From Variovorax sp. YR216 (GTDB taxonomy: Bacteria > Pseudomonadota > Gammaproteobacteria > Burkholderiales > Burkholderiaceae_C): a stretch of 64,000 nucleotides of DNA. This document shows, in pieces, positions 3,792 through 61,750 of this stretch (position 1 is the stretch's first letter; each line of letters starts with the position of its first letter). The stretch lies in the NCBI RefSeq assembly GCF_900107745.1, contig NZ_FNRO01000006.1:124001-188000 (forward strand), in the 5' to 3' direction. Under the pieces are notes generated by a model that saw nothing but the letters and a program-made list of their open reading frames with translations, did no database searches and was not told the DNA's origin. Both the position numbers and the translations under genes were made by a program.

Positions 3792-4180
3792 CCGGTGCGT
3801 CCACCACTGCCGTAGGGGCGCGTGAGCAGCTCCAGCACGTGGCCGTCGGGGTCGTCCCAATACACCCCGCGGCCGCCGTCGTTGTGGTTGATGCGGCCCG
3901 CCTGCGCGTGGCGCGGATCGGCCCAGTAGTCCAGGCCGCGCGCACGGATGCGCCCGAAGATCACGTCGAACTCCTCCTCGCTCACGAGGAAGGCGAAGTG
4001 CTGTACCGGGAATTCAGCGTCGTCGCGGATGTAGTCCAGCGTCACGCCGTTGTCCACCGTGACCCCCTGGAAGGGACCGAAAGGCACCGGCGCGGCGCAG
4101 CCGAGGATGTCCGACAGGAAGGTGGCGGACGCGAGCGGATCGCGGGCCGAGACGATGGTGTGGTTGAGCTGGATGGCCAT
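3788..4180 (-). CDS. VOC (glyoxalase/extradiol dioxygenase fold) protein
   Basis: 130 residues, a single VOC unit made of two beta-alpha-beta-beta-beta modules. Candidate metal ligands are His7 (LNHTIV), the His in VQHFAFLV and the Glu in HVLELLTRP, which is the usual H-H-E arrangement. The segment GRGVYWDDPDGHVLE is typical of glyoxalase-like proteins. Translation starts at the ATG at 4180. Its stop overlaps the acyl-CoA dehydrogenase stop on the other strand. The exact reaction cannot be assigned. Confidence 0.85.
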   Translation of the reverse strand: MAIQLNHTIVSARDPLASATFLSDILGCAAPVPFGPFQGVTVDNGVTLDYIRDDAEFPVQHFAFLVSEEEFDVIFGRIRARGLDYWADPRHAQAGRINHNDGGRGVYWDDPDGHVLELLTRPYGSGGRTG

Positions 4181-4625: not shown

Positions 4626-5714
4626 ATGAAGACGTACAAGATCGCGACCATTCCTGGCGACGGCATCGGCAAGGAAGTCGTGCCTGCCGGCCAGCAGGTC
4701 CTGCAGACGCTGGCTTCGACCAGCAAGGCCTTTGCCTTCGAGTTCGAGAACTTCGACTGGGGCGGCGACTACTTCCGCGAGCACGGCGTGATGATGCCGG
4801 ACGACGGCCTCGATGCCCTGCGCGACAAGGACGCGATCCTCTTCGGCTCCGCCGGCGATCCGCACATCCCCGACCACATCACGCTCTGGGGCCTGCGCCT
4901 GAAGATCTGCCAGGGCTTCGACCAGTACGCCAACGTGCGCCCGACGCGCATCCTGCCCGGCATCGATGCGCCGCTGAAGCGCTGCAAGCCCGAGGACCTG
5001 AACTGGGTCATCGTCCGCGAGAACTCCGAAGGCGAGTACTCCGGCGTGGGCGGCCGCGTGCACCAGGGCCATCCGATCGAGGCGGCGACCGACGTGTCGA
5101 TGATGACCCGCGTGGGTGTCGAGCGCATCCTGCGCTTCGCCTTCAAGCTCGCGCAGTCGCGTCCCCGCAAGCTGCTCACCGTGATCACCAAGTCCAACGC
5201 ACAGCGCCATGCGATGGTGATGTGGGACCAGATCGCGGGCGAGGTCGCCGCCGAGTATCCCGATGTGAAGTGGGACAAGGAACTGGTCGATGCGGCGACC
5301 GCGCGCATGGTCAACCGCCCGGCGAGCCTGGACACCATCGTGGCCACCAACCTGCACGCCGACATCCTGAGCGACCTCGCGGCGGCGCTGGCCGGCAGCC
5401 TGGGCATCGCGCCCACCGGCAACATCGATCCGGAGCGCCGCTATCCGTCGATGTTCGAGCCCATCCACGGCTCGGCCTTCGACATCATGGGCAAGGGCCT
5501 GGCCAATCCGGTCGGCACCTTCTGGTCCGTGGTGCTGCTGCTGGAGCATCTCGGCGAGCATGAAGCGGCGGCCCGCGTGATGGAGGCGGTCGAGCGCGTG
5601 ACCGCCAACACCGCGCTGCACACCCGCGACCTCGGCGGCACCGCCACCACCGCGCAGGTGACCGAAGCCGTCTGCAGCCAGCTCTCGGCCGGCGTCCAGC
5701 GCAAGGCTGCCTGA
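4626..5714 (+). CDS. ttuC: Tartrate dehydrogenase/decarboxylase
   Basis: 362 residues, a beta-decarboxylating dehydrogenase of the isopropylmalate/isocitrate family, closest to TtuC/TDH. Such enzymes oxidise tartrate with NAD+ to oxaloglycolate and decarboxylate meso-tartrate to D-glycerate in the cytosol. Seen motifs: IPGDGIGKEV (residues ~8-17), RENSEGEYSGVGG (substrate loop), ITKSNAQRHAM (catalytic Lys), ATNLHADILSDLAAALAGSLG-type metal-binding Asp segment and EPIHGSAFDI (nucleotide site). The ATG at 4626 follows CCGGAGACATTC. It is first in an operon with DctA, glycerate 2-kinase and pyruvate kinase, which is the ttu gene content and strengthens the call over a leuB assignment. Confidence 0.9.
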   Translation: MKTYKIATIPGDGIGKEVVPAGQQVLQTLASTSKAFAFEFENFDWGGDYFREHGVMMPDDGLDALRDKDAILFGSAGDPHIPDHITLWGLRLKICQGFDQYANVRPTRILPGIDAPLKRCKPEDLNWVIVRENSEGEYSGVGGRVHQGHPIEAATDVSMMTRVGVERILRFAFKLAQSRPRKLLTVITKSNAQRHAMVMWDQIAGEVAAEYPDVKWDKELVDAATARMVNRPASLDTIVATNLHADILSDLAAALAGSLGIAPTGNIDPERRYPSMFEPIHGSAFDIMGKGLANPVGTFWSVVLLLEHLGEHEAAARVMEAVERVTANTALHTRDLGGTATTAQVTEAVCSQLSAGVQRKAA

Positions 5715-5731
5715 CCGGCAGCCAGGCCCGA

Positions 5732-5751
5732 CCCCGGCTCGCACGCCGGGG
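5732..5751 (+). other. GC-rich hairpin between ttuC and dctA
   Basis: CCCCGGC (5732-5738) and GCCGGGG (5745-5751) form a perfect 7-bp stem with a 6-base loop. No T-run follows, so it is not a standard intrinsic terminator. It may stabilise the ttuC message or lower expression of the genes downstream; this is inference. Confidence 0.4.
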
Positions 5752-5858
5752 CCATTCCCGAATCCGGGCGCCTTCATCCCCCGCTGCGCTCTCCCGCCAA
5801 AGCAGCCGAACGAGCTGCGGGAGCGCGCTCGCGCCCACTTATTCCTCAGGAGACAGTC

Positions 5859-7214
5859 ATGCGGCGCTTTTTCGGAAAACTCTACGTCCAGGTGCTGATC
5901 GGCGTCTTCGCCGGCATCGCGCTCGGCGTCTTCGCACCCAACTTCGCGAGCGACTTCAAGCCGCTGGGCGATGTGTTCATCAAGCTCATCAAGATGGTCT
6001 TCGCGCCGATCATCTTCGCGACCGTTGTGCTCGGCATCGCGCGGATGGAGAGCATGAAGGAGCTCGGCCGCGTGGGCTTTCGCGCGCTGATCTACTTCGA
6101 GGTGCTGTCGACCTTCGCGCTCGCGCTCGGGCTGGTAGTGGTCAACGTCGTCGGCCCGGGCCGGGGCATGAACATCGACGCGAGCCATCTTGATACGAAG
6201 GCCATCGCGACCTACACCGCGACCGCCGCGAAGCCGCAGGGCTTCATCGATTTCATGATGAACCTCGTGCCGACCAGCCTCTTCGATGCGCTGGCGCGCA
6301 ACGACATCCTGCAGATCCTCGTCTTCGCGACGCTGCTCGGCGTGGCGCTGTCGCACATCGGGCCGCGTGCGAAGCCGGTGGTGGATTTTCTCGATTCATT
6401 CACGCATGGCGTGTTCGCCATCGTCGGGATGATCATGCGGCTGGCACCGATGGCGGCCTTCGGCGCGATGGCCTTTACCGTGGGCAAGTACGGTCTCGGC
6501 TCGGTGGTCTCGCTCGGCAAGCTGATGGGGACGATGTACATCACCTGCTTCCTGTTCGTCACGGTGGTGCTCGGCGTGATCGCGCGGCTGTCGGGCTTCA
6601 GCCTCTGGAAGTTCCTCAAGTACATCAAGGACGAGCTCTTCACGGTGCTGGGCACCAGCTCGTCGGAATCGGTGGTGCCGCAGCTCATGCGCAAGCTGGA
6701 GCACGCCGGCGTGTCGAAGCCGGTGGTCGGCCTGGTCGTGCCTTCGGGCCTGACCTTCAACCCCGACGGCCAGTGCATCTACTACACGATGGCCGCGATC
6801 TTCATCGCGCAGGCGACCAACACGCCGCTGACTTTGACGGACCAGCTCGTGGTGCTCGGCGTGCTGCTGCTGACCTCCAAGGGGTCGGCGGGCGTGACCG
6901 GATCGGGCTTCATCACGCTGGCGGCGACGCTCGCGTCGATGGGCAAGATCCCGGTGGCCGGCATGGTGCTGCTGCTGGGCGTGGACCGCTTCATGTCCGA
7001 GGCGCGGGCGATCACCAACACCATCGGCAATGCGGTGGGCACGATCGCGATTGCGCGCTGGGTCGGCTCCGTGGACCGGCAGCGCCTCGCGCGGGTGCTG
7101 GACGGCCAGGCCGATCCCGAGGACCTGCACGAGCTGTACGAGGGCGATGACGACAGCAACGTCAAGCCGATCCGCGCCGATCTCGGCGAGCTTGGCGTGC
7201 GCGCCGCAGCCTGA
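5859..7214 (+). CDS. dctA: Dicarboxylate:cation symporter, DctA type
   Basis: 451 residues with about eight hydrophobic membrane segments and two re-entrant loops, as in the DAACS family. The serine-rich loop GTSSSESVVPQL and the late PSGLTFNPDG motif are the substrate and cation signatures. The ATG at 5859 follows AGGAGACAGTC. DctA proteins import C4-dicarboxylates across the inner membrane with protons. Here it takes the place of the TtuB carrier of known tartrate operons, so tartrate is the likely substrate. Its TGA overlaps an ATG at 7214, which suggests coupled translation with the next gene. Confidence 0.92.
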   Translation: MRRFFGKLYVQVLIGVFAGIALGVFAPNFASDFKPLGDVFIKLIKMVFAPIIFATVVLGIARMESMKELGRVGFRALIYFEVLSTFALALGLVVVNVVGPGRGMNIDASHLDTKAIATYTATAAKPQGFIDFMMNLVPTSLFDALARNDILQILVFATLLGVALSHIGPRAKPVVDFLDSFTHGVFAIVGMIMRLAPMAAFGAMAFTVGKYGLGSVVSLGKLMGTMYITCFLFVTVVLGVIARLSGFSLWKFLKYIKDELFTVLGTSSSESVVPQLMRKLEHAGVSKPVVGLVVPSGLTFNPDGQCIYYTMAAIFIAQATNTPLTLTDQLVVLGVLLLTSKGSAGVTGSGFITLAATLASMGKIPVAGMVLLLGVDRFMSEARAITNTIGNAVGTIAIARWVGSVDRQRLARVLDGQADPEDLHELYEGDDDSNVKPIRADLGELGVRAAA

Positions 7215-11031: not shown

Positions 11032-11628
11032 TCAACGCGGCACGTACAGCACCTGCTCCAGCACCGCGGGCGCGCCGGTCACGGTCTTCACCTTGCCGGC
11101 GTCGTCGAAGGACACCTGGTACTCCGACCACGAGTCCGTCCAGTAGCGCCACACCTTGGCATCCAGGCGCGGGTTCTCGCTGGTGATCGGCCAGCCGACG
11201 GCCATGGTCACCTGTTCGCGCGTCATGCCCTCGGCGATCCTCGCGTCGCGGATGGCTTCGCGGATCGCGGGCTCGAAGGTCGCGATGCGGGCCTTGGGGT
11301 CTTCCTTGACGATGTAGCGCTCGGCGAACGGCGTCATCGCGATGTCGCGGCTGTAGTCGTTCTTCAGGCGCTGCACCTTGCCGCCGATCTGCGCGTAGAC
11401 GAAGCGCATCTCATAGCCGGTGACCTGCGCCGGCGTGCCGACCGGCACGAGGCTGGTGCCGGCTTCACGGTAGTTGCCGTCGCCCATCTGCGTGCCGTAG
11501 GTGTACATGTTGCAGCACAGGTAGCCCGCGAACAGAGGGCCCTGCGGCGCTTGGGGGCGCTGTGCGTGTGCGACGGAAAGAGGAAGCGCAAGCGCGCAAG
11601 CGGCGGCCAGGGCCAGACGACGGGGCAT
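11032..11628 (-). CDS. BamE/OmlA-like exported protein
   Basis: 198 residues. The ATG at 11628 follows AAGGAGAATCTTCCCG. A signal peptide covers ~1-22 (ends VAHA before QR) with no clear lipobox. The C-terminal part has the SmpA/OmlA pattern IAEGMTREQVTMAVGWP followed by WRYW, a beta-strand region and VSFDDAGKVKTV, as in BamE-type folds. A Cys-Cys pair in the N-terminal part (YLCCNMYTYG) is unusual. It probably acts in the periplasm or cell envelope, but it lacks the context of the true bamE gene, so function is open. Confidence 0.7.
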   Translation of the reverse strand: MPRRLALAAACALALPLSVAHAQRPQAPQGPLFAGYLCCNMYTYGTQMGDGNYREAGTSLVPVGTPAQVTGYEMRFVYAQIGGKVQRLKNDYSRDIAMTPFAERYIVKEDPKARIATFEPAIREAIRDARIAEGMTREQVTMAVGWPITSENPRLDAKVWRYWTDSWSEYQVSFDDAGKVKTVTGAPAVLEQVLYVPR

Positions 11629-25304: not shown

Positions 25305-26003
25305 CGCTGGCCGCTCAGGCGGGCTCGCCCGCTGGTGGTGGCAGGGGCACTCGGGTCTCGAACTTCGAGCAGTTCAGCAACGCTCGGATAGGGATGCCTC
25401 CGTCTGTTTCGTCACTATGTGCGACAGCGCACAGAGGACAGCTGCGCCTTTGCTCTATCGTGGACTTTACGAACAGCGTTCCGAGAAGTCCGCGTGGAAT
25501 TGAAGTGATGCGTCGCGCCAGCCCGGGTGCGCCAAGCAGGAAATGAGTTCGCAGCGCTTGGCGAGGCACGAAAGTCGCGCGCTTTCATTGACGATTGGGA
25601 CATGAATCGCGGCGAGGGCAGCTCACCGTTCATCGACCCATAGCGCAGGGCGTGGCATCGCTGCAGTGAAAGCAGCTTGGAACGAGCGATAGCGCCGCCG
25701 GGCCACTCGCCGGCGAAGGATTCGTCCAGGCCTCACAAGACCGCCTGCTACGTGCGGTGCCACGTCGAGCATCGGCATCGGCCTGTCTGGCCTCTCGGCA
25801 TTTGGAATCCGCTTCGACACAAGCCTCTGCAAGCGGGTGACGAAGAGGCCCCAGGCGCTGAGATGGTCTCCGAGGTGTTTCGGTGAAGGTTTGGATCCTG
25901 TGATGCCGAGCGTCGGCTGCGACGGCGTCTGCGCCTCTTGCTATTCGCGCAAAGAGCGTTCCTATTTTGAACGATGACTTCTTATTGATCACCGGAGAAG
26001 AAA
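25305..26003. other. 700-bp region without a supported gene, holding a perfect palindrome
   Basis: Several short frames exist but none has convincing protein character. The only clear structure is the palindrome at 25418-25433 followed by a weak -10-like TCTATCG at 25454. The end of the region carries the ribosome site (CCGGAGAAGAAA) of the glycosyltransferase. The region may hold a decayed gene or a small RNA. Confidence 0.45.
25418..25433. promoter_or_regulatory. Island palindrome site A (TGTGCG-ACAG-CGCACA)
   Basis: Perfect 6-bp arms around a 4-base spacer. It has the same form as the site at 33847 and related ones at 29690, 30487, 32396 and 34664. No gene starts within 500 bp on the plus strand, so its target is unclear. 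Confidence 0.55.
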
Positions 26004-27053
26004 ATGAAGATCGCCCAGGTTTCGCCACTGTGGGAGGCCGTGCCACCGACGTTCTACGGGGGCACTGAGCGCGTAGTCGCCAATCTCAGCAATGCCTTGG
26101 TCGACCAGGGCCATGAAGTCACCCTCTTCGCGGCAGGAGGGTCGCACACACGCGCGACTCTGGTGCCCGTCCGACGGCAGGCGCTGCGGCTCGATCCGGC
26201 ACCGCTCAAGTCGGAGCTGGCCGCCCATCTGCTCCTCATGAGCGAAGTGAGGCGACGCGCCGACGAGTTCGATGTACTGCACTTTCACATGGACCTGTTG
26301 CATTTCCCTTTTTTCGAGGACATAGCCGATCGCACGCTCACCACGATCCATGGCCGGCTGGACCTGACGGACTTGGCCGAGGCGTACGGGAGGTGGAGTG
26401 ACTTCCCCCTTGTCTCGCTCTCCCATCACCAGCGCAAGCCGATGCCCTTGGCAAACTGGATCGGCACGGTGCACAACGGAATCGACGAAACGCATTTCCG
26501 GCCGGCGACGAAGCCGACGGGCGCATATCTCGCCTTTCTCGGTCGCATTGCGCCCGAAAAGCGTCCGGACCGCGCGATCGACATCGCGATTCGCGCGGGC
26601 CTGCCCCTCAGGATTGCAGCCAAGGTGGATGCCGTCGACCGCGCCTACTTCGAGAACTGCATACGCCCGCTGCTGCAGCATCCGCTGATCGAATACATGG
26701 GTGAAGTGAGCGATGCCGAGAAGCCCGGGTTCCTCGGGAACGCACGGGCGCTGCTGTTTCCGATCGACTGGCCCGAGCCCTTCGGGCTCGTGATGATCGA
26801 GGCGATGGCCTGCGGCACACCGGTGATTGCATGGCGCTGCGGATCCGTGCCGGAGGTGCTGGAGCACGGCCTGAGCGGGTTCATCGTCGACAACGAGGAA
26901 GAGGCCACGGCCGCTGTGAAGAATGTGGGGCAACTCGATCGGGCGCGCATCCGGGCGGCGTTCGAGCGCCGGTTCTCCGCCAAGGTGATGGCAACGGCCT
27001 ATGTCGAGCTCTACCACCGGCTGCTGGCCATGAGCTTGCCTGCTGCCGCTTGA
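26004..27053 (+). CDS. Glycosyltransferase family 4
   Basis: 349 residues of the GT-B fold. N-terminal IAQVSPLWEAVPPTFYGGTERVV is the acceptor-side glycine-rich motif, and the C-terminal domain has the E-x7-E retaining motif in PEPFGLVMIEAMACGTPVIAW. ATG at 26004 follows GGAGAAGAAA. A glycogen-debranching-type gene follows 14 bp later, so the pair forms an operon that probably makes or remodels a glucan or a compatible solute. The donor sugar is unknown. Confidence 0.9.
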   Translation: MKIAQVSPLWEAVPPTFYGGTERVVANLSNALVDQGHEVTLFAAGGSHTRATLVPVRRQALRLDPAPLKSELAAHLLLMSEVRRRADEFDVLHFHMDLLHFPFFEDIADRTLTTIHGRLDLTDLAEAYGRWSDFPLVSLSHHQRKPMPLANWIGTVHNGIDETHFRPATKPTGAYLAFLGRIAPEKRPDRAIDIAIRAGLPLRIAAKVDAVDRAYFENCIRPLLQHPLIEYMGEVSDAEKPGFLGNARALLFPIDWPEPFGLVMIEAMACGTPVIAWRCGSVPEVLEHGLSGFIVDNEEEATAAVKNVGQLDRARIRAAFERRFSAKVMATAYVELYHRLLAMSLPAAA

Positions 27054-29346: not shown

Positions 29347-29619
29347 CTATTCGATGCCCTTGCCCACCGCAGGGTGCAGGTCGTAGTCACGCAGCATCAC
29401 GGGTTCGACGGAGCCGCCCGCGACTCGCCTGCGCACGGCCTCATCGATATCCTTGGCGTGAACCTGGTAGGTGTCCAGCGGCTCGTCGTCGATGGCAGTC
29501 GACCGATAGCAGTAGTGCAGCGTTTCCTTGCCAATGCTCGCACCGACGAGCTGGCCATCGATGGACACCCAGAAATGGACGGCGCCTGAGGCCTCATGAA
29601 AGAAGGGAGGGTTTGACAT
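29347..29619 (-). CDS. DUF1488-like small protein
   Basis: 90 residues; ATG at 29619. The strand pattern EASGAVHFWVSIDGQLVGASI followed by a helical stretch (DTYQVHAKDIDEAVRRRVAG) resembles DUF1488 proteins, which are small and of unknown function. The assignment is from memory of the family pattern. A palindrome of the island type lies ~75 bp upstream with a TAGAAG -10-like element at the expected distance, so it probably belongs to the same regulon as the phasins. Confidence 0.65.
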   Translation of the reverse strand: MSNPPFFHEASGAVHFWVSIDGQLVGASIGKETLHYCYRSTAIDDEPLDTYQVHAKDIDEAVRRRVAGGSVEPVMLRDYDLHPAVGKGIE

Positions 29620-29689: not shown

Positions 29690-29705
29690 GGTCCGGTAGC
29701 GCACA
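29690..29705 (-). promoter_or_regulatory. Island palindrome site D (GGTCCG-GTAG-CGCACA)
   Basis: The right arm is perfect and the left arm matches 4 of 6. Upstream of the DUF1488-like gene. The -10-like TAGAAG starts at 29668 on the minus strand, 29.5 bp from the centre, the same spacing as at the two phasin promoters. Confidence 0.45.
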
Positions 29706-29741
29706 GACGAAAGGCGTCGGCCGCAGGGGCGGAACATGAGG

Positions 29742-30431
29742 TCAAAGCACTCCCGCGTAGCTCTTCCTGTCCGCGGCATAACAGGCGCAAGCTGTCGCCT
29801 CGAGTCCCGGACGATCGAGCACGCTGATGGTGCCGCGGTGGTAGTGGATCAACCCGCTGCGCTGCAGCGAACCGGCGGCCTCGGTGATGCCGACACGGCG
29901 CACGCCCAGCATGTAGGCGAGAAACTCGTGCGTGACGCTGAAGCTGTCGGCATGGGCGCGGTCCTGGCTCATGAGGAGCCAACGCGCGAGGCGCGGGCCG
30001 ATCTGGTGAAAGCGCAGGCAGGCGGCCGACGCCGCAAGTTGAGACATCGAGACGTGGATGTAGCGGTCCAGCACTCGCTGCAGCGGCGCGTTACGTGCCA
30101 GTTCGCGTCGGAAGTCGACCGCGGTGACGCGCCAGGCCGAGCCCGCGCCTTGCACCAGTGCGCGCAAGGGCGCGATGTCCACGCCGAGAACGAGGTTCGA
30201 GCCCAGCATCCCTTCGCGCCCCACCATGCCGACTTCGATTCCGGGATGCTCGTCGATCCGAGCCACCAATGAAATGAAGCCGTCGACAGGAAAGTAGACA
30301 TGCCGGGTTGCTGCGCCAGGCTCGTGGATCACCTCGGCCAGGATCAGCAGGATCGGCTCGCAGACGTCCAGCAGGCGCCGGCGGTCGTTGCGCGGAAGCA
30401 ATTCGATGAGGTGGTTCTCGATCGTGGCCAA
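29742..30431 (-). CDS. Crp/Fnr-family transcriptional regulator, paralogue 1
   Basis: 229 residues from a TTG at 30431, chosen because CGGAG lies 6 bases before it; the frame continues upstream but would cross the promoter. An N-terminal cyclic-nucleotide-type beta-barrel (HVYFPVDGFISLV, GIEVGMVGREGMLG) precedes a long dimer helix and a Crp winged helix, EFLAYMLGVRRVGITEAAGSLQ. No Fe-S Cys cluster of Fnr type is seen. The recognition helix is nearly the same as in the second Crp/Fnr gene at 33899. It is divergent from phasin 1, with a palindrome between them. Confidence 0.85.
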   Translation of the reverse strand: MATIENHLIELLPRNDRRRLLDVCEPILLILAEVIHEPGAATRHVYFPVDGFISLVARIDEHPGIEVGMVGREGMLGSNLVLGVDIAPLRALVQGAGSAWRVTAVDFRRELARNAPLQRVLDRYIHVSMSQLAASAACLRFHQIGPRLARWLLMSQDRAHADSFSVTHEFLAYMLGVRRVGITEAAGSLQRSGLIHYHRGTISVLDRPGLEATACACYAADRKSYAGVL

Positions 30432-30486
30432 GGATCGCTCCGTGTGAGTGGTGCGAGCCACTCTGCGCGCAATTGCCCGGTGCGAC

Positions 30487-30502
30487 TGTCTGCCAGCGCA
30501 CA
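30487..30502 (+). promoter_or_regulatory. Island palindrome site C (TGTCTG-CCAG-CGCACA)
   Basis: Right arm perfect, left arm 4 of 6. Between the Crp/Fnr gene and phasin 1. The centre (30494.5) is 29.5 bp before the -10 box TATAAA (30524). With a start near 30536 the site is centred at about -41.5, the class II activator position of Crp-type proteins. Confidence 0.55.
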
Positions 30503-30523
30503 GACGCGATGGCGACGGCGTCC

Positions 30524-30529
30524 TATAAA
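30524..30529 (+). promoter_or_regulatory. -10 box of phasin 1 (TATAAA)
   Basis: Good -10 hexamer within CCTATAAATG, 36 bp before the phasin ATG. No -35 hexamer is seen; the palindrome occupies that place, as at the second phasin gene. Confidence 0.55.
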
Positions 30530-30564
30530 TGCCGATTGAACGGCACCCGCCGAGAAAGGCCACC

Positions 30565-30885
30565 ATGCAAGACCTCACCCAACCCTTCGTCAAGCTTTCT
30601 ACCGCGAATGCGGAACTCATCACCCGCTTTGCGCAGTCGCAGGAAATGGTCGACCTGGTCAACACCAGCGCACAGAAGTACCTCGAACTGGCGCAGAAGA
30701 CCTTTGGAGGAACGCCCGCATCCGAAGCCCAGGCGGACCTGATCCGCAGTCTGACCGACAACTATTCGACCTTTGCGCGAGAACATGCCGAGAGCCTCAT
30801 GGGAATGGCAGCCGAAGCCCAGACCCAGATCACTCAGCAGGTGGCGCAGGCCTCGAAGATGATGAAGCCCGAAGGTTCGAGTTGA
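30565..30885 (+). CDS. Short phasin-family protein 1
   Basis: 106 residues. ATG at 30565 follows GAGAAAGGCCACC; the upstream ATG at 30529 lies on the -10 box and cannot be the start of a normal transcript. Helical, amphipathic, with the phasin-like pattern QKYLELAQKTFGG and DNYSTFAREHAESL. Phasins coat polyhydroxyalkanoate granules; this one is shorter than the common ~180-residue PhaP. It is clearly paralogous to the phasin at 32604 (shared TQPF, FAQS, QKYxELAQ, NYSTFARE). Confidence 0.8.
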   Translation: MQDLTQPFVKLSTANAELITRFAQSQEMVDLVNTSAQKYLELAQKTFGGTPASEAQADLIRSLTDNYSTFAREHAESLMGMAAEAQTQITQQVAQASKMMKPEGSS

Positions 30886-30952
30886 GGCTTGTACCAGCGT
30901 CGCAGGCTCCACCGATCGACACCGGGAAGCAGTGAGGCAGGCTGAGCACCTG

Positions 30953-32095
30953 TCAAGGGCTGTCTCGCGAGTCAAGCGTCTTTCGTGGAAGCTTGATGGT
31001 GAAGACACATCCCGTGCCCGGGAGGTCCCGAACGGTCAATACGCCTCCGTCAGACTCCACGCTTCGTCGCGCGATGGAAAGGCCGAGTCCCAAGCCGCTC
31101 TTGTTCTCACCGACCTGGACAAAGGGCTGGAAGATACGCGCCGTGGCTCCTGGAGGAAGTCCACCGCAGTGGTCCCTGACGTCGACCAGGACATAGTCCC
31201 CTTCGGCATGGGCGCTCAGGGTGACTTCGGTATGGGCATGGGTGAACTTTATGGCGTTCTGCAGCAAGTTCACCAGGGCCGCCAGGAGCCGCTCGCGGTT
31301 TCCCGAGATGCCCAGCGTGGCATCGACGTCGAGGGCGCAGAGCGTGCAGCCCTTTGTGCTCGCATCGAGCGAGACGACATTCCTGGCCTCCGCAACGAAC
31401 GACGCGACCGAAAAGGCTGCCTCCTGAGGACCTTCGGCCGTGACCCTGACCTGAGACAGTGACAGACTCAGCAGGGCCGCCAACGACGTCAGGCTCCTTT
31501 TCAGCACGGCGCCGGTTGCGCCGCCAAGTGGAACCCTCCCCGATTCCAGCGCGGTGAACGCAAGCGTTGCGGTGTGCAAGTAGTTCCGCAACTCATGCAC
31601 CAGCACGCCCAGGCGCTCGTTCTCCTCGGCGGTCTGCTGAAGTGCGACGCTGGCGTCCCGCCAGGTGCTGAATTCGGTGACCGCGTCAGCGATGGCGTTG
31701 TCGAGGCAACGGTTCAAGGTGCGGAACTCGTCGACGGAGAACGGCGCATCGAGCTCGACGGCGAGGTCTGTGATGGCCTGGCAAAGGTCGCCGTAGTCGT
31801 GTACCACCTGGTCGACGGAAAAGCCGAGCTCCATCAACTGCTTGCCGTGCGCTGCTGCGCTCAGGCCCATTTCAGACAAGGCAGCGGCGTCACCGCCAGC
31901 GGCACCTGAAATCCTGAAGCTCTCGTCGACCTCGCCGTTCTCCTGCGCTTCCAGCGTTCTCATCAACTGGTCCAGAAAAATCGGAACGCCGTTGGCGAGC
32001 TGCGCAGCTGTGGCTTCTCGCCGGGGCCGCTGAGCAACCTTGGCTTTGCATCGATCAACGAGCTCTTCGCGATGGTTGTAGAGGAATCGATGCAT
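30953..32095 (-). CDS. Sensor histidine kinase with RsbRD-type N-terminal domain
   Basis: 380 residues. ATG at 32095 follows GAACGAGGACCCT. The N-terminal ~140 residues are helical (MHRFLYNHREELVDRCKAKV) and resemble the RsbRD/RsbR sensor domain of stress systems. The kinase part has the H-box LVHELRNYLHT (His167), N-box NLLQNAIKF (Asn280), DHCGGLP (Asp308) and GLGLGLSI. No membrane segment, so it is a soluble sensor. No response regulator gene is near, so its partner is elsewhere. It lies between the two phasin genes. Confidence 0.87.
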   Translation of the reverse strand: MHRFLYNHREELVDRCKAKVAQRPRREATAAQLANGVPIFLDQLMRTLEAQENGEVDESFRISGAAGGDAAALSEMGLSAAAHGKQLMELGFSVDQVVHDYGDLCQAITDLAVELDAPFSVDEFRTLNRCLDNAIADAVTEFSTWRDASVALQQTAEENERLGVLVHELRNYLHTATLAFTALESGRVPLGGATGAVLKRSLTSLAALLSLSLSQVRVTAEGPQEAAFSVASFVAEARNVVSLDASTKGCTLCALDVDATLGISGNRERLLAALVNLLQNAIKFTHAHTEVTLSAHAEGDYVLVDVRDHCGGLPPGATARIFQPFVQVGENKSGLGLGLSIARRSVESDGGVLTVRDLPGTGCVFTIKLPRKTLDSRDSP

Positions 32096-32395
32096 AGGGT
32101 CCTCGTTCAGCAGCCCCGGTTTCGAAAAAGTCGAAGCGCTCAGCCGGTAAGTTTGGCGACCACTGTGCGTCGGCGACGTCCAGCCCCAAGTCCACATCAT
32201 GCGCGCTCGGTGCACTGTCGAACATAGAGCCGTCGAGGAGCCCGTCTGTCAGGGCGGGCATTGCCATGCCCCAATAGTGGTTTCTGCTTGCCGCTTCGTA
32301 ACAGCGGGTGGAACGCGATTGGAAATCACGGCCTCGAGCGTCCGTGCATCAGCCACAGGCCGCATGTCGCCGGTCTGCAGCTTCGGCGGCATCTA
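32096..32395. other. Intergenic region upstream of histidine kinase and phasin 2
   Basis: No gene is supported. A TGTGCG half-site occurs at 32164-32169 but without a matching arm. The region probably contains the promoter of the histidine kinase, which I cannot place. Confidence 0.4.
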
Positions 32396-32411
32396 CGTGC
32401 TCCAACGCACC
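32396..32411 (+). promoter_or_regulatory. Island palindrome site F (CGTGCT-CCAA-CGCACC)
   Basis: Matches 9 of 12 arm positions of the TGTGCG-N4-CGCACA form. The centre (32403.5) is 29.5 bp before the TATAAA at 32433, exactly the geometry of phasin 1. Confidence 0.5.
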
Positions 32412-32432
32412 GACGCGAGACGAGTCGACCCG

Positions 32433-32438
32433 TATAAA
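32433..32438 (+). promoter_or_regulatory. -10 box of phasin 2 (TATAAA)
   Basis: TATAAA within CGTATAAAGG, ~165 bp before the phasin 2 ATG. Same hexamer and same spacing to the palindrome as at phasin 1. The implied untranslated leader is long (~160 bases). Confidence 0.5.
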
Positions 32439-32603
32439 GGCGGCAGAGGTTGGGCGCGACAGCTGGCGGCCTCTGTGAGCGAATCGGAATGCAAGGGCAG
32501 CACGCCCTGTCTTCCGGTTCGGTGCGCCGCTACCGAAGCTGCTGGTGGGGCACCTTCCCCCTGAGTAGCTTCGATGGCCGGCGGCAGCCGGTAAAAGGCA
32601 ACC

Positions 32604-32978
32604 ATGAACGATATGACCCAGCCCTTCACCCATCTGGCCGAGGCCAACGCGGCGCTCCTGACGAACTTCGCGCAGTCGCCCGCGATGTTCGAAATGGCAA
32701 ACGCCAATGTCCAGAAGTACTTCGAGCTCGCGCAGCAATCCTTCGAGCGCGTCGTCGTCTCCGACGTCTACGCGGACTTGATCCGCAAGCTCACGGAAAA
32801 CTACTCGACGTTCGCGCGCGAGTACTCGGCAAGCCTCCTGGACTGGTCCACACAGGGGCAGAGTCTGATGGCGCAACAGGCTCAGACAGCGTCGGATCTC
32901 CTCGCGGATTCGGGCAAGGCGACGCCGACCGCGCTGGGGAGGGCATCGGACACAGTCAAGCACTTGCGAGCCAGGTAG
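32604..32978 (+). CDS. Short phasin-family protein 2
   Basis: 124 residues; ATG at 32604 follows GTAAAAGGCAACC. Paralogue of the phasin at 30565, with the same order of motifs (TQPF, NFAQSPAMF, VQKYFELAQQSFE, ENYSTFAREYSASLL) and a longer, Ala/Thr-rich C-terminal tail. Probable granule-associated or stress-induced helical protein. Its 3' end overlaps the convergent zinc-ribbon gene by 23 bp. Confidence 0.8.
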   Translation: MNDMTQPFTHLAEANAALLTNFAQSPAMFEMANANVQKYFELAQQSFERVVVSDVYADLIRKLTENYSTFAREYSASLLDWSTQGQSLMAQQAQTASDLLADSGKATPTALGRASDTVKHLRAR

Positions 32979-33732
32979 AGTGAAGCTGTGAAGCCAAGCG
33001 GAGTCGGCACCATTCCGTTACACACGTATCGAAGAGCGCGATGTTCTCCGCGACTTCCGCTCGGAGCCATTGCCTGGCGCCTTCTTGCGCCTTGGCGTCG
33101 GCAGCAAACCATGCCTCCCGCGCGTCTTCGGGCCCAGGTGGCGCCGACGCACCCCAGATCTGAGCAAAGATCGACAGGGTTTCGCCTGCAGGAAGATCGG
33201 CCCAGATGATTCCCAGGCTCGAGAGTGCATCTCGACGCTCGCCCAGTTCGACGCTGCTGCGGAAGTGACCGTTGTCTTCCGCGATATTGGCGCTCAGCCC
33301 GCCGGCCAGGAGGACATGCAGCAACTCGCGGGCATCGGCGTGGCGAATCCATTGCTCCGCTCGCCGAACCAGCTGTGCCGCAGCGATGTCCATGTTGGTA
33401 TGGAGGCCTCGATCCGGCCCGACCTCGGGGTTGGCATCGCCCGGACCCGGGAACGCCCTCGAATTCGCGGAGCATTCAGTCCACTGCGATGCCCGGATCG
33501 GTTGGTCATGAGTCGAATGCGAGGCGGCCGCATGGAACGCCGGGAGCTTGCCACCACAGCCAGCGCAGAACCTGGCCTCGTCACGATTGACGGTACGACA
33601 GAGTCTGCAAACCGCCACAGGCTGGTCGCTCTGAATCCACATCCTCAACATGCTGGCGAAACCCGCGAAAGCATCGATGGATAGAGGGTTGCCGCGCGCA
33701 TGGGAGGGGGACTTCACCGGGGTGAACGTCAT
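32956..33732 (-). CDS. Zinc-ribbon protein of unknown function
   Basis: 258 residues from the ATG at 33732 (an internal ATG at 33642 also fits and would begin just before the ribbon). A four-Cys zinc ribbon, CRLCRTVNRDEARFCAGCG, lies at residues ~42-60. The rest is soluble, with LLHVLLAGGLSANIAEDNGHF and a Trp-rich helical C terminus (EWCRLRLASQLHSTWLASA). I do not recognise the C-terminal domain. A perfect island palindrome lies 115 bp upstream with a TACAAA -10-like element, so it probably belongs to the phasin regulon. Confidence 0.7.
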   Translation of the reverse strand: MTFTPVKSPSHARGNPLSIDAFAGFASMLRMWIQSDQPVAVCRLCRTVNRDEARFCAGCGGKLPAFHAAASHSTHDQPIRASQWTECSANSRAFPGPGDANPEVGPDRGLHTNMDIAAAQLVRRAEQWIRHADARELLHVLLAGGLSANIAEDNGHFRSSVELGERRDALSSLGIIWADLPAGETLSIFAQIWGASAPPGPEDAREAWFAADAKAQEGARQWLRAEVAENIALFDTCVTEWCRLRLASQLHSTWLASA

Positions 33733-33846
33733 GGCGAATCTCGTGCCGCGCTGCTCAGATCAGCCCTGCTGGGCTCGAGGCGGCGAAGGTCGGGGTCTGC
33801 ATGAAATTCTCATGCCCTTTTGTAAGGCGGACGCCGAGGCGCCGTC

Positions 33847-33862
33847 TGTGCGGCAGCGCACA
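33847..33862 (-). promoter_or_regulatory. Island palindrome site B (TGTGCG-GCAG-CGCACA)
   Basis: Perfect arms. Upstream of the zinc-ribbon gene on the minus strand; TACAAA (first base 33824) lies 30.5 bp from the centre and could serve as -10. It lies just past the 3' end of the second Crp/Fnr gene. Confidence 0.6.
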
Positions 33863-33898
33863 TCGCGCCCGACGCGCGACCCATGCCGTTCGGTTCTT

Positions 33899-34615
33899 CT
33901 AGATGGCGACCGTGTCCGGAAGGAGTCTGTCATATTCCTTCTTGACCACCGCATAGCACTCGCAAGAGCGCCGCTCCAGCCCTTGCCGGTCCAGCACCGA
34001 GATGCGACCGCGCGCATAACTGATGAGGCCGGCCCTTTGCAGCTTGAGTGCGCTTTCCGTGACGCCTTCGCGGCGCACACCGAGCATGTTGGCGATCAGT
34101 TCCTGCGTCATCACGAGTTCATTGCCCTGCAGCCGGTCCAAGCTCAGCAGGAGCCAGCGGCACAGTTGCTGATCCAGGGAGTGGTGGCGGTTGCAGACCG
34201 CCGTTTGCGCCATCTGCGTGATCAGCGCCTGGGTGTAGCGCAGCAGCAGGTGAAGGACTGGGGCCCGGTTGAACTCGTCCTTGATCACCTGTGCCTTGAG
34301 CCTGAAGCCTTGGCCTGCGCTTTGCACTACGGCTCGACTGGGAGTGGACTCACCCCCCATGAACAGCGAGATGCCCACGACACCCTCGTTGCCGACCACG
34401 GCGATCTCCGCCGAGGCGCCGTTTTCCATGACGTACAACAAGGAGACGATGGCGGTGCTCGGAAAGTAGACATGGCTCAACGTGGTGCCCGATTCATACA
34501 GCACCTGGCCCAATGGCATCTCGACCGCTTCGAGCTGAGGCAACCAGCGCTGCCATTCGCCATCGGGCAACGCAGCGAGCAGGCGGTTCTTTCTCGGTTC
34601 GGGTTGAAGGGCCAT
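33899..34615 (-). CDS. Crp/Fnr-family transcriptional regulator, paralogue 2
   Basis: 238 residues from the ATG at 34615, preceded by GGAGGAAGCG. N-terminal sensory barrel (SHVYFPSTAIVSLLYVMENGASAEIAVVG-type strands, NEGVVGISLFMGG), dimer helix, and winged helix ELIANMLGVRREGVTESALKLQ. It has no Fnr-type Cys cluster. The DNA-reading helix matches that of the regulator at 29742 (MLGVRR-x-G-V/I-TE), so both should bind the same kind of site. A degenerate island palindrome lies ~50 bp upstream of its start. Confidence 0.88.
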   Translation of the reverse strand: MALQPEPRKNRLLAALPDGEWQRWLPQLEAVEMPLGQVLYESGTTLSHVYFPSTAIVSLLYVMENGASAEIAVVGNEGVVGISLFMGGESTPSRAVVQSAGQGFRLKAQVIKDEFNRAPVLHLLLRYTQALITQMAQTAVCNRHHSLDQQLCRWLLLSLDRLQGNELVMTQELIANMLGVRREGVTESALKLQRAGLISYARGRISVLDRQGLERRSCECYAVVKKEYDRLLPDTVAI

Positions 34616-34663
34616 CGCTTCCTCCGGATGCTGGTTTCGAGGATGAGCAACATTGTCTGCTAC

Positions 34664-34679
34664 GTCCGCTACCGCACAG
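34664..34679 (-). promoter_or_regulatory. Island palindrome site E (CGTCCG-CTAC-CGCACA)
   Basis: Right arm perfect, left arm 4 of 6, close to site D in the GTCCG-(G/C)TA-(G/C)-CGCACA core. Upstream of Crp/Fnr paralogue 2, so possible autoregulation. Confidence 0.4.
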
Positions 34680-59314: not shown

Positions 59315-61750
59315 ATGTTCCTGCTCAATTCCCACGCCACCCGTCGTCTGTACGACATCGATCTCCAGGCCATCTTGAACCTTGCCGAAGGGCGCGCAAG
59401 CCGGCAGCGGCTGTCGACATGGGACCGGCTCTCGCCGTGCCCGACCCCGGCGTGGTCGCTGCCGGGTCTCGCTGCTTCGCTGGGAATCGCGGGGCTCACG
59501 CTCAAGGACGAGTCCAGGCGTTCCAGCCTCGGCAGCTTCAAGGCGCTCGGCGCGCCCAATGCGCTCATCCGGCTGGTGCTGCGGCGCTGGCCCGATCGTG
59601 GATGGCGTGCGGATGATCTGTTTCGTGGAACGCACGCGGCCGAGTTGCGCGGCTTCGTCGTCATCAGCGCCACCGACGGCAACCATGGCCGTGCGCTGGC
59701 CGCTGCCGCGCAGAGCATCGGCTGCCGATGCGTGATCGTGCTGCACGCGCATGTCAGCCAGGAGCGCGAGGACGCGATCGCCGCGTTCGGCGCCGAGATC
59801 GTGCGCATCGCGGGCAACTACGACGAATCGGTGGAAGAGGCCGCGCGCCTCGCGCGTGTCAATGGATGGGAGGTGGTGTCCGACACCTCGTACGAAGGCT
59901 ACGAGGAGGTGCCGCGCGACGTGATGCAGGGCTACGGCGTCGTCGCCGAAGAGCTGCTCGAGACCGCGCCTTCCGACGCCTGTCCGTGGACGCATGTGAT
60001 TCTGCAAGGCGGTGTCGGCGGACTGGCCGCCGGCATCGTGAGCCACTTCTGGGAGCGCTATGGCGAACGCCGTCCGCGCTTCGTCGTCGCGGAGCCCGAG
60101 CAGGCCGATTGCCTCTGTCAAAGCGCGCTGCAAGGTCGGCCGGCGCGCGCGACCGGCAGCGTGGATTCGGTGATGGCGGGGCTGGCGTGCGGCGAGACAT
60201 CGCCGCTCGCGTGGCGCTTCCTGCAGCCGGCGGTCGATGTCTTCATGACGGTGTCGGATGCGCAGGCGGTGGAGGCGATGCGATTGCTGGCCGGCGGATC
60301 GCATGCCGATGTCCCGGTGGTGGCAGGCGAATCCGGCGTCGCGGGGCTGGCTGCGCTCGAGCGCATCGCGCGCAACGATGCGTGGCGGCAGCAGGCGGGC
60401 CTCGCCGCGGATGCACGCGTCCTCGTCATCAACACCGAAGGGGCGACCGCGCCGGCGGTGTACGAAAGCCTCGTCGGACGCTCGCACGATGAGGTGCTCG
60501 CCGCCCAGCAGCAGTGGCTGCGGCAGCGCTCGGTCGGCGAGGCGGCGCTGGTCGAACGCATCGAGGCGCATGCCGCCATCGGCGCGATCGAAGGCGGCGG
60601 CGTCTGCCGCATCGCGCTGACCGATGCCGACCGCGATGGACGCGACCGGCTCGTCGCGTGGATGCGCGAGCTCGGCCTCGCCGTGTCCATCGACCGCATC
60701 GGCAACATCTTCGGCGTGCGCCGCGGCAAGGCGGACCTGGCGCCGGTGATGACCGGCTCTCACATCGACACTGTCGCGACCGGCGGCCGCTACGACGGCA
60801 ACTACGGCGTGATGGCGGGGCTCGAAGTGGTGCGCTGGCTCAATGACCGCGGCATCGCCACGCATCGTCCGCTCGTCGTCGCGGCGTTCACGAACGAGGA
60901 GGGCGTGCGTTTCCAGCCCGACATGATGGGCTCGCTGGTCCATGCCGGCGGCCTGCCCTTGCAGCAGGCGCTCGACACCGTCGGCACCGACGGCGCGCGG
61001 CTGGGCGACGAGCTGGCGCGCATCGGGTACGCCGGCGGGATGGCGTGTGGATCGATCGTGCCGCATGCGTTCGTCGAACTGCACATCGAGCAGGGCCCGG
61101 TCATGGAGGCCGAAGGCGTGCAGATCGGCGCGGTCGAGAACCTGCAGGGCATTTCATGGCAGGAATTCACGATCACCGGCCAGTCCAACCATGCGGGCAC
61201 CACGCCCATGCGCCTGCGCCGCGACGCCGGCTATTGCGCGGCCGCGATCGCGGTGTTCGTGCGCGAGCTGGCGCTGCGCGAGGGCGGAAGCCAGGTTGCG
61301 ACCGTGGGCGCGATCGACCTGCACCCGAACCTCATCAACGTGATCCCGGCACGCGCGACGGTCAGCGTCGACCTGAGGAATACCGACGAGGCCACGTTGC
61401 AACGCGTCGAGCGGGAGCTCGCCGCGTTCGTCGGCAAGCTCGCCGACGAGCAATCGGTGCGCATCGACACACGCCGGCTGGTGCGATTCGAGCCGGTGGT
61501 CTTCGACGGGCGGCTGGTGCGCGTCATCGAGCGCGCAGCGCAGACGCGCGGCCACGCAACGCGGCGCATGACCTCCGGCGCCGGCCACGACGCGCAGATG
61601 ATGGCCCGCGTGTGTCCGGCGGCGATGGTCTTCGTGCCCAGCGCGCTCGGCATCAGCCACAACCCGCGCGAACACACCGCGCCCGCAGACCTGCTGCGGG
61701 GCGCGGACGTGCTGCTCGATGTGCTGCTGGCGCTGGCGGAAGAGGGCTGA
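59315..61750 (+). CDS. Fusion of diaminopropionate ammonia-lyase and M20 carbamoylase-type hydrolase
   Basis: One uninterrupted 811-residue frame. Residues ~1-398 are a PLP enzyme of the diaminopropionate ammonia-lyase type: the PLP Lys76 in GSFKALG, Asp121 in ATDGNHGRA and Asp190 in SDTSYEGYEE correspond to Lys77, Asp120 and Asp189 of the E. coli enzyme as I recall them; QGGVGGLAAG binds phosphate. Residues ~405-811 are a complete M20C amidase (hydantoinase/carbamoylase, allantoate amidohydrolase group): His483 in TGSHIDTV, Asp494 in GGRYDGNYG, Glu528-Glu529 in TNEEG, HIEQGPVME and the last His in GISHNPREHT. No frameshift or stop separates them. It probably frees 2,3-diaminopropionate from an N-substituted form and splits it to pyruvate and ammonia. 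Confidence 0.9.
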   Translation: MFLLNSHATRRLYDIDLQAILNLAEGRASRQRLSTWDRLSPCPTPAWSLPGLAASLGIAGLTLKDESRRSSLGSFKALGAPNALIRLVLRRWPDRGWRADDLFRGTHAAELRGFVVISATDGNHGRALAAAAQSIGCRCVIVLHAHVSQEREDAIAAFGAEIVRIAGNYDESVEEAARLARVNGWEVVSDTSYEGYEEVPRDVMQGYGVVAEELLETAPSDACPWTHVILQGGVGGLAAGIVSHFWERYGERRPRFVVAEPEQADCLCQSALQGRPARATGSVDSVMAGLACGETSPLAWRFLQPAVDVFMTVSDAQAVEAMRLLAGGSHADVPVVAGESGVAGLAALERIARNDAWRQQAGLAADARVLVINTEGATAPAVYESLVGRSHDEVLAAQQQWLRQRSVGEAALVERIEAHAAIGAIEGGGVCRIALTDADRDGRDRLVAWMRELGLAVSIDRIGNIFGVRRGKADLAPVMTGSHIDTVATGGRYDGNYGVMAGLEVVRWLNDRGIATHRPLVVAAFTNEEGVRFQPDMMGSLVHAGGLPLQQALDTVGTDGARLGDELARIGYAGGMACGSIVPHAFVELHIEQGPVMEAEGVQIGAVENLQGISWQEFTITGQSNHAGTTPMRLRRDAGYCAAAIAVFVRELALREGGSQVATVGAIDLHPNLINVIPARATVSVDLRNTDEATLQRVERELAAFVGKLADEQSVRIDTRRLVRFEPVVFDGRLVRVIERAAQTRGHATRRMTSGAGHDAQMMARVCPAAMVFVPSALGISHNPREHTAPADLLRGADVLLDVLLALAEEG

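Follow-up and report, generated by a model that had tools for sequence, protein, structure and literature searches.

The stretch considered here, hereafter the window, comprises 64,000 nucleotides of Variovorax sp. YR216 (RefSeq assembly GCF_900107745.1, contig NZ_FNRO01000006.1, positions 124,001 to 188,000) and carries an island of genes including two regulators of the Crp/Fnr superfamily, called here Crp2 and Crp1. The palindromes of the form TGTGCG-N4-CGCACA found in this region are probably operators of the Crp/Fnr subfamily represented by Crp2, which would activate the island from a Class II position. The operator is real and conserved; the proposed mode of action, Class II Crp-type activation, is already familiar, and the novelty lies in the half-site.

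In the proposed mechanism, a Crp2 dimer would bind TGTGCG-N4-CGCACA, that is, TGTG-N8-CACA whose halves each carry C as the fifth and G as the sixth base. Centred near −41.5 and overlapping a residual −35 element (GAC), it would act as a Class II activator and switch on a small stress-type island of two phasin-like genes, a DUF1488 gene, a histidine kinase gene, a Zn-ribbon-like gene and both regulators. Activation of the regulators' own genes would constitute positive feedback. Physical binding, activation rather than repression and the composition of the dimer are predicted from sequence.

Conservation of the operator and promoter layout

The six 16-bp elements described in a first-pass annotation of this DNA are all present, one of them starting at 34663 and not at 34664. 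Those at 25418 and 33847 are perfect, those at 29690, 30487 and 34663 have two mismatches and that at 32396 has three. Since counting of the plain pattern gave no enrichment (the figures are weighed below), it was replaced by a comparison with relatives. This used the best 80 loci (L018–L097; 1.40 Mb; more existed) with homologues of Crp2 (P0001). By title they are mostly from Burkholderiales, with some from Gammaproteobacteria, and a few genomes supply two loci each. Judged by Crp2, the nearest relative that bears a name is a Variovorax, at 95% identity.

The perfect palindrome occurs 21 times in 19 of these loci, against no occurrence for any of six control patterns (reversed, swapped, N2, N3, N5 and N6 versions). 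At no more than one mismatch there are 118 palindromes, compared with 4–16 for the controls, and the enrichment is specific to the N4 spacing. Sites were oriented solely by the three bases after the palindrome, which left 91 of the 118 usable, and a 45-position matrix was trained on these 91 sites, with the window left out. In the oriented sites the spacer favours Y-R, the palindrome is followed by GAC (positions 17–19), and a −10-like TAnnnT stands at positions 38–43. If this −10 is taken to span −12 to −7, the palindrome would be centred at about −41.5 with GAC at the −35 location, which is the layout of a Class II activator. Matches scoring at least 16 number 415 in the 80 loci and 0 in reversed controls (a palindrome may count on both strands). 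The conserved matrix has C-G at positions 5–6 and does not have the CRP-type form TGTGA-N6-TCACA.

Applied to the window, the matrix places the six sites already noted, together with a seventh at 32209–32224, in the top seven positions, with best-strand scores from 14.0 to 31.2. The next-best score is 10.1 (at 59349), and the reversed window gives a single match of 11.4, all others being 4.8 or less. The four degenerate sites, which cannot be told from chance by the plain pattern, become significant through the relatives. As the seventh site precedes the histidine kinase gene, all seven genes between 29.3 and 34.7 kb have an upstream site. No Rfam match at gathering scores was found within 24–37 kb of the window.

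Genes and sites of the island

The features of the window are listed below with their strand.

25418..25433, +: perfect operator of the same family; matrix 26.3 on +, 24.7 on −
29347..29619, −: DUF1488 protein (P0005); PF07369, 23.8 bits (cut-off 22)
29690..29705, −: operator lying some 70 bp ahead of the DUF1488 gene; matrix 20.7 on −
29742..30431, −: Crp1 (P0002), second Crp/Fnr regulator; helix LGVRRVGITE; TTG start codon uncertain
30487..30502, +: operator with unlike halves TGTCTG/TGTGCG; matrix 25.8 (+), 20.0 (−)
30524..30529, +: −10-like TATAAA; distance to the centre of site 30487 is 29.5 nt, a spacing kept in relatives
30565..30885, +: phasin-like gene 1 (P0003); weak Phasin_2 match, E 0.024, under the Pfam cut-off
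30953..32095, −: sensor histidine kinase (P0007); HATPase_c, 76.4 bits
32209..32224, −: seventh operator, upstream of the histidine kinase gene; matrix 14.0 on −
32396..32411, +: operator upstream of phasin-like gene 2; matrix 17.1
32433..32438, +: −10-like TATAAA, 29.5 nt from the centre of site 32396
32604..32978, +: phasin-like gene 2 (P0004), homologue of P0003
32956..33732, −: Zn-ribbon-like protein (P0006); weak double-zinc-ribbon match, E 0.0031, under the cut-off; start uncertain
33847..33862, −: perfect operator upstream of the Zn-ribbon-like gene; matrix 31.2 on −
33899..34615, −: Crp/Fnr-type regulator Crp2 (P0001) with recognition helix LGVRREGVTE; the likeliest reader of these sites
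34663..34678, −: operator upstream of Crp2; matrix 13.7 on −, 15.3 on +

Crp2 and Crp1 are 42% identical and both contain a Crp-type winged helix-turn-helix above cut-off (HTH_Crp_2, 53.2 and 53.3 bits respectively; cut-off 27). Crp2 also matches cNMP_binding (29.7 bits; cut-off 27.5), for which Crp1 has no match at E 0.001. An alignment of Crp2 proteins shows an invariant CNRHH (C141–H145), C152 and a C-terminal CECY (C218–C220), a possible metal or redox sensing site.

The Class II spacing in the window is exact for sites 30487 and 32396 only. Site 30487 lies between divergent genes and would serve phasin-like gene 1 on the + strand and Crp1 on the − strand. A −10-like TAGAAG stands at the expected place for site 29690, and TACAAA lies one base away from the consensus −10 place for site 33847; for sites 34663, 25418 and 32209 no −10 is obvious at the standard distance. 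Site 34663 may possibly serve Crp2 autoregulation. Site 25418 has no clear target gene, the next gene on the + strand starting 571 nt away. A glycosyltransferase gene (26004–27053) was considered as its target and rejected: the single close homologue among the 80 loci (L021) has no site within 700 nt.

Oriented upstream sites were also checked among the 80 loci. They precede close homologues of the kinase (E ≤ 1e-80) in five of six loci, matched open reading frames (ORFs) outside the window in 11 of all 32 cases, both phasin-like genes found and three of seven DUF1488 genes; no homologue of the Zn-ribbon-like gene was found in these loci. The targets first proposed (two phasins, a zinc-ribbon protein, a DUF1488-like protein and the regulators) are retained as predicted targets and joined by the histidine kinase, but the name phasin is not: the two proteins are 47% identical, and as neither reaches the Pfam phasin cut-off (a Pfam search with P0004 gave no phasin match) only the label "phasin-like" is used.

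Association of the operator with Crp2

Co-occurrence was assessed in 300 genomes of the order with the pattern TGTGCGN4CGCACAGAC at no more than one mismatch, a strong Crp2 homologue being defined by E ≤ 1e-40 (a typed table reproduces a tally of 129 genomes). The 100 genomes with a strong homologue contain 252 matches against 54 for the control. Corresponding figures are 23 and 17 in the 43 genomes with a weak homologue, and 42 and 48 in the 157 with none. The motif therefore clearly exceeds its control only where a strong Crp2 homologue exists.

The genes downstream of 344 sites (80 loci and window, score at least 12) were clustered using rough gene calls. Crp-type genes form the largest class (88 sites, 63 loci), followed by sensor kinases (33 sites). 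Smaller groups are, as we recognise them by sequence, presumably BON, DUF4398/OmpA, DUF1488, CsbD, PRC-barrel, YSC84 and phasin-like genes. A 13-site cluster antisense to Crp2 was rejected as an artefact. A site lies within 260 nt upstream of 93 of 129 Crp2-like genes with Glu at position 183 (masked matrix, score at least 10).

Recognition residue 183 and base 4 of the half-site

Residues R181, R182, G184, V185, T186 and E187 are invariant in an alignment of 23 Crp2 proteins; at position 183, 20 of them have Glu and the other three (L159, L160, L162) have Ser. We take Crp2 R182-E183 to be equivalent to CRP R180-E181, and E187 to CRP R185. A profile alignment to solved Crp-family chains places R182-E183 on R-E of 3dv8 and 4cyd. 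In E. coli CRP, Arg180 makes its contact with G2 of TGTGA, and base pair 4 (G4 and C4) is where Arg185 and Glu181 make theirs (PMC11253593).

Base 4 was counted with GTxCG-N4-CGxAC in 118 Glu183 and 33 Ser183 loci, two mixed loci being left out. In the Glu183 loci the pattern occurs 306 times versus 36–39 at other spacings, and base 4 of the half-site is G 312 times, T 172, A 96 and C 32. In the Ser183 loci it occurs 47 times versus 2–12, with A 67, C 13, G 8 and T 6. Fisher tests give p 2e-16 for G and 2e-27 for A, but they count as independent half-sites that are not. When each locus is scored once, G is commoner than A in 85 of the Glu183 loci and rarer in 12, with 8 ties and 13 loci lacking an exact site; the Ser183 loci divide 2 to 25, with 1 tie and 5 lacking such a site. 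The idea that the concordance reflects many independent events was rejected, there being three Glu/non-Glu changes on the tree, of which only the Ser/Pro clade carries the signal.

Crp1 and an asymmetric operator

The recognition helices of the two regulators had been called nearly the same. The one variable residue of the RR-x-G-V/I-T stretch is nevertheless the one we equate with CRP Glu181: it is E in Crp2 and V in Crp1, and among 15 aligned Crp1 sequences it is Val in 12 and Glu in three from Collimonas. Both regulators had also been proposed as readers of the palindrome; the evidence concerns Crp2, and upstream of Crp1 stands an operator of another, asymmetric form, TGTGCGCTGGCAGACAGTC, whose CACACT-like −10 keeps the same distance.

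This sequence precedes 29 of 51 Crp1 genes (window included) at no more than two mismatches and six more at three; the remaining 16 have no match at three or fewer mismatches, some being cut by contig ends. Its counterpart in the window is the − strand of site 30487, a site common to Crp1 and the divergently oriented phasin-like gene 1. The CAGACA half (dinucleotide AG) occurs 16 times at N4 and seven times over twelve other spacings together; other dinucleotides at N4 are GC 42, GA 30, GT 21, AC 7, GG 3, AA 2, CA 1 and CC 1. In the three Collimonas loci with Glu in Crp1 (L028, L030, L034) the promoters still have a CAGACA/CAGACG half. The symmetric TGTCTG-N4-CAGACA was rejected as a Crp1 homodimer site (no perfect copy; six at no more than one mismatch versus six in the control). 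In the 300 genomes the asymmetric pattern gives 16 matches against 10 in the control, and lies beside Crp1 in the Variovorax genome itself and in G007 only; it fades outside close relatives. Crp1 and Crp2 may read the 30487-type operator jointly.

Other sites in the genome and on plasmids

Fifteen of the 27 sites of the Variovorax genome with no more than one mismatch were fetched as loci, and six of these, two of them in the window, score at least 12. Beyond the window, a genome-wide model search found two sites on contig C10, one on C38 and three further weak places. Those on C10 (84000–95500) lie at 5389 and 5752 of the fetched locus (L154), one before a third, partial phasin-like gene, so that all three genes of this family in the genome have an upstream site. 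The small C10 cluster seems to be a partial, decaying copy of the island. On C38 (L153) a site at 3958 (score 30.1) stands about 1 kb before a paralogue of the window kinase (4922–6193). A matrix site on C4 lies beside a gene which we take to be DoxX-like. The predicted regulon of this genome is therefore small.

By tblastn at E ≤ 1e-5, 348 plasmid records encode proteins like P0001, a large share of them distant. One Cupriavidus pauculus plasmid has, inside a 25 kb section, genes for amylo-alpha-1,6-glucosidase, glycosyltransferase 4, PHB depolymerase, a Crp2-type regulator, DUF1488 and an annotated phasin, a gene set much like that of the window. Both pKLC102 (L157) and the C. pauculus plasmid record L160 have a single P0001-like place, with operator sites present; in pKLC102 operator-like sites are near the Crp2-type gene. 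Those at 11167, 13167, 17305 and 17362 stand before small hypothetical genes and next to a fatty acid desaturase. Annotated plasmid regions agree in part with the placement of sites: in L159, for example, one CsbD gene and two glycine-zipper genes directly follow sites.

Weighing the alternatives

A number of observations weigh against reading the palindromes as Crp2 operators. By the plain pattern, the window holds 64 matches at up to three mismatches against a mean of 85.2 in shuffles, and the genome (7.37 Mb) 27 at up to one mismatch against 32 for the reversed pattern, all DNA being counted, intergenic or not; perfect palindromes number five, two of them inside the window. The frequency check suggested by the first-pass annotation, done by plain counting, thus gives no excess, so that it needs relatives or a full site model. 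A separate whole-genome search with a sequence model (E ≤ 1; 150 of 2837 first-look candidates scored) recovered window sites 25418, 29690, 30487 and 33847 and missed 32209, 32396 and 34663, which lowers the odds of the reading. By the rough gene calls, 112 of the 344 sites lie inside ORFs. The promoter of Crp2 itself is weak in the window and lacks a clear −10 at the standard place. Only two of 35 Ser183 genes have a site directly upstream, and 14 of 42 diverged homologues (48–74% identity) have one scoring at least 19; autoregulation therefore appears common near Crp2 and not general in the family. The loci are not de-duplicated, some genomes giving two. The Ser183 regulators group together in a single clade (35 S and 2 P tips, support 0.954), so that the concordance amounts essentially to one change. 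L085 (Gly) and L095 (Val) are discordant in keeping G at base 4; the Ala183 group has A, seen only in loci which also hold Ser or Pro copies; and Glu183 loci of the Ser type's own family have few sites (A 5, T 4, G 1). Lineage or composition may contribute to the shift.

Could the palindromes be the product of chance or composition in high-GC DNA? Plain counts at or below control in the window and genome would agree with this, but the N4-specific excess in relatives, the Class II geometry, the co-occurrence with Crp2 and the performance of a matrix trained without the window make it scarcely credible; a palindrome regulon tied to the island's Crp/Fnr genes, as first proposed, gains no help from plain counting and is upheld by the relatives and the matrix. 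That an unrelated DNA-binding protein travels with these islands and reads the palindrome would account for the many diverged Crp2 homologues and the majority of Ser183 genes without a site of their own. It is very improbable in view of the Crp-like TGTG-N8-CACA geometry, the position near −41.5, the co-occurrence with Crp2, the sites before Crp2 genes and the concordance between residue 183 and base 4. Repression by the bound regulator would suit sites 34663, 25418 and 32209, where no −10 is recognisable at the standard distance; placement near −41.5 with a degenerate −35 is instead the layout of a Class II activator, and we regard repression as improbable.

An unlikely arrangement, though less so than the preceding ones, has two readers, Crp2 on TGTGCG and Crp1 on TGTCTG halves, forming homo- and heterodimers which site 30487 would link. 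It draws on the asymmetric operator with its −10 at the same spacing before more than half of the Crp1 genes, on the excess of the CAGACA half at N4 and on Val at the Glu181-equivalent of most Crp1 proteins. Against it stand the missing enrichment of the symmetric TGTCTG site, the near-control count in the 300 genomes, the Crp1 genes without a match and the Collimonas proteins, whose Glu alongside a retained CAGACA/CAGACG half means that the residue offers no simple explanation. The Collimonas result lowers the odds both of two readers and of a broader conjecture, which, taken jointly, we consider rather doubtful: an unnamed Crp/Fnr subfamily would carry a private, portable code, moving with the operators of its stress cargo between Burkholderiales, some Gammaproteobacteria and plasmids. 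With the change of the Glu181-equivalent to Ser, this code would have been re-set at base 4 of the half-site, which would insulate one lineage; Variovorax-type islands would also have gained a second paralogue, answering through a hybrid operator. Reading of the palindrome by Crp2, with Class II activation, remains the interpretation we favour.

In loci L100, L101, L102 and L104 of genus g45, diverged Crp2 homologues with the helix RRESVTK have, some 62 nt upstream of the gene, a site with altered halves, TGTTAG on the left and CGTACA on the right, and with TATAAT at an unchanged spacing.

The analysis provides an operator, a probable reader and a promoter layout for a regulator of which 100 among the 300 genomes sampled from the order hold a strong homologue. 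It also assigns to a predicted regulon many stress-type genes about which little is understood (BON, CsbD, glycine-zipper, DUF1488, phasin-like and others). The concordance of Glu/Ser with G/A offers a natural test of how recognition residues of the Crp family set specificity.

Comparison with known systems

The classical CRP site is TGTGA-N6-TCACA and the FNR site TTGAT-N4-ATCAA. The form found here differs from the former at positions 5 and 6 of each half, but is closer to it than was first claimed, TGTG-N8-CACA being common to both. Crp2 resembles E. coli CRP in its HTH_Crp_2 and cNMP-binding matches, its operator geometry, its Class II position and, as we equate them, R182 and E183 with CRP R180 and E181. 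It is unlike CRP in its TGTGCG half-site, in E187 standing at the place of CRP R185, and in a gene set which forms a local stress-type island. With FNR, ANR and DNR it shares the Crp/Fnr superfamily (DNR is a weak profile match), whereas P0001 has no N-terminal cysteine cluster, its first Cys being residue 141, and the FNR site differs. No operator of this form was noticed, and no description of this Crp/Fnr subfamily met with, in the literature titles and abstract openings listed, a coverage that leaves out most subscription journals.

The low-oxygen-activated (lxa) locus of Burkholderia cenocepacia is likewise a reported stress-protein locus in Burkholderiales and was considered as a candidate relative of the island. 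The regulator associated with it is unlike Crp2 in being BCAM0049, an Anr/FixK-like protein (PMC6127331, PMC9104464). The Crp/Fnr gene of pKLC102 from Pseudomonas aeruginosa encodes a Crp2-type regulator that is 72% identical and has operator-like sites upstream of neighbouring genes; it differs from the window in that its sequence record holds one such regulator and that its cargo is a glycoside hydrolase 94 and a fatty acid desaturase.

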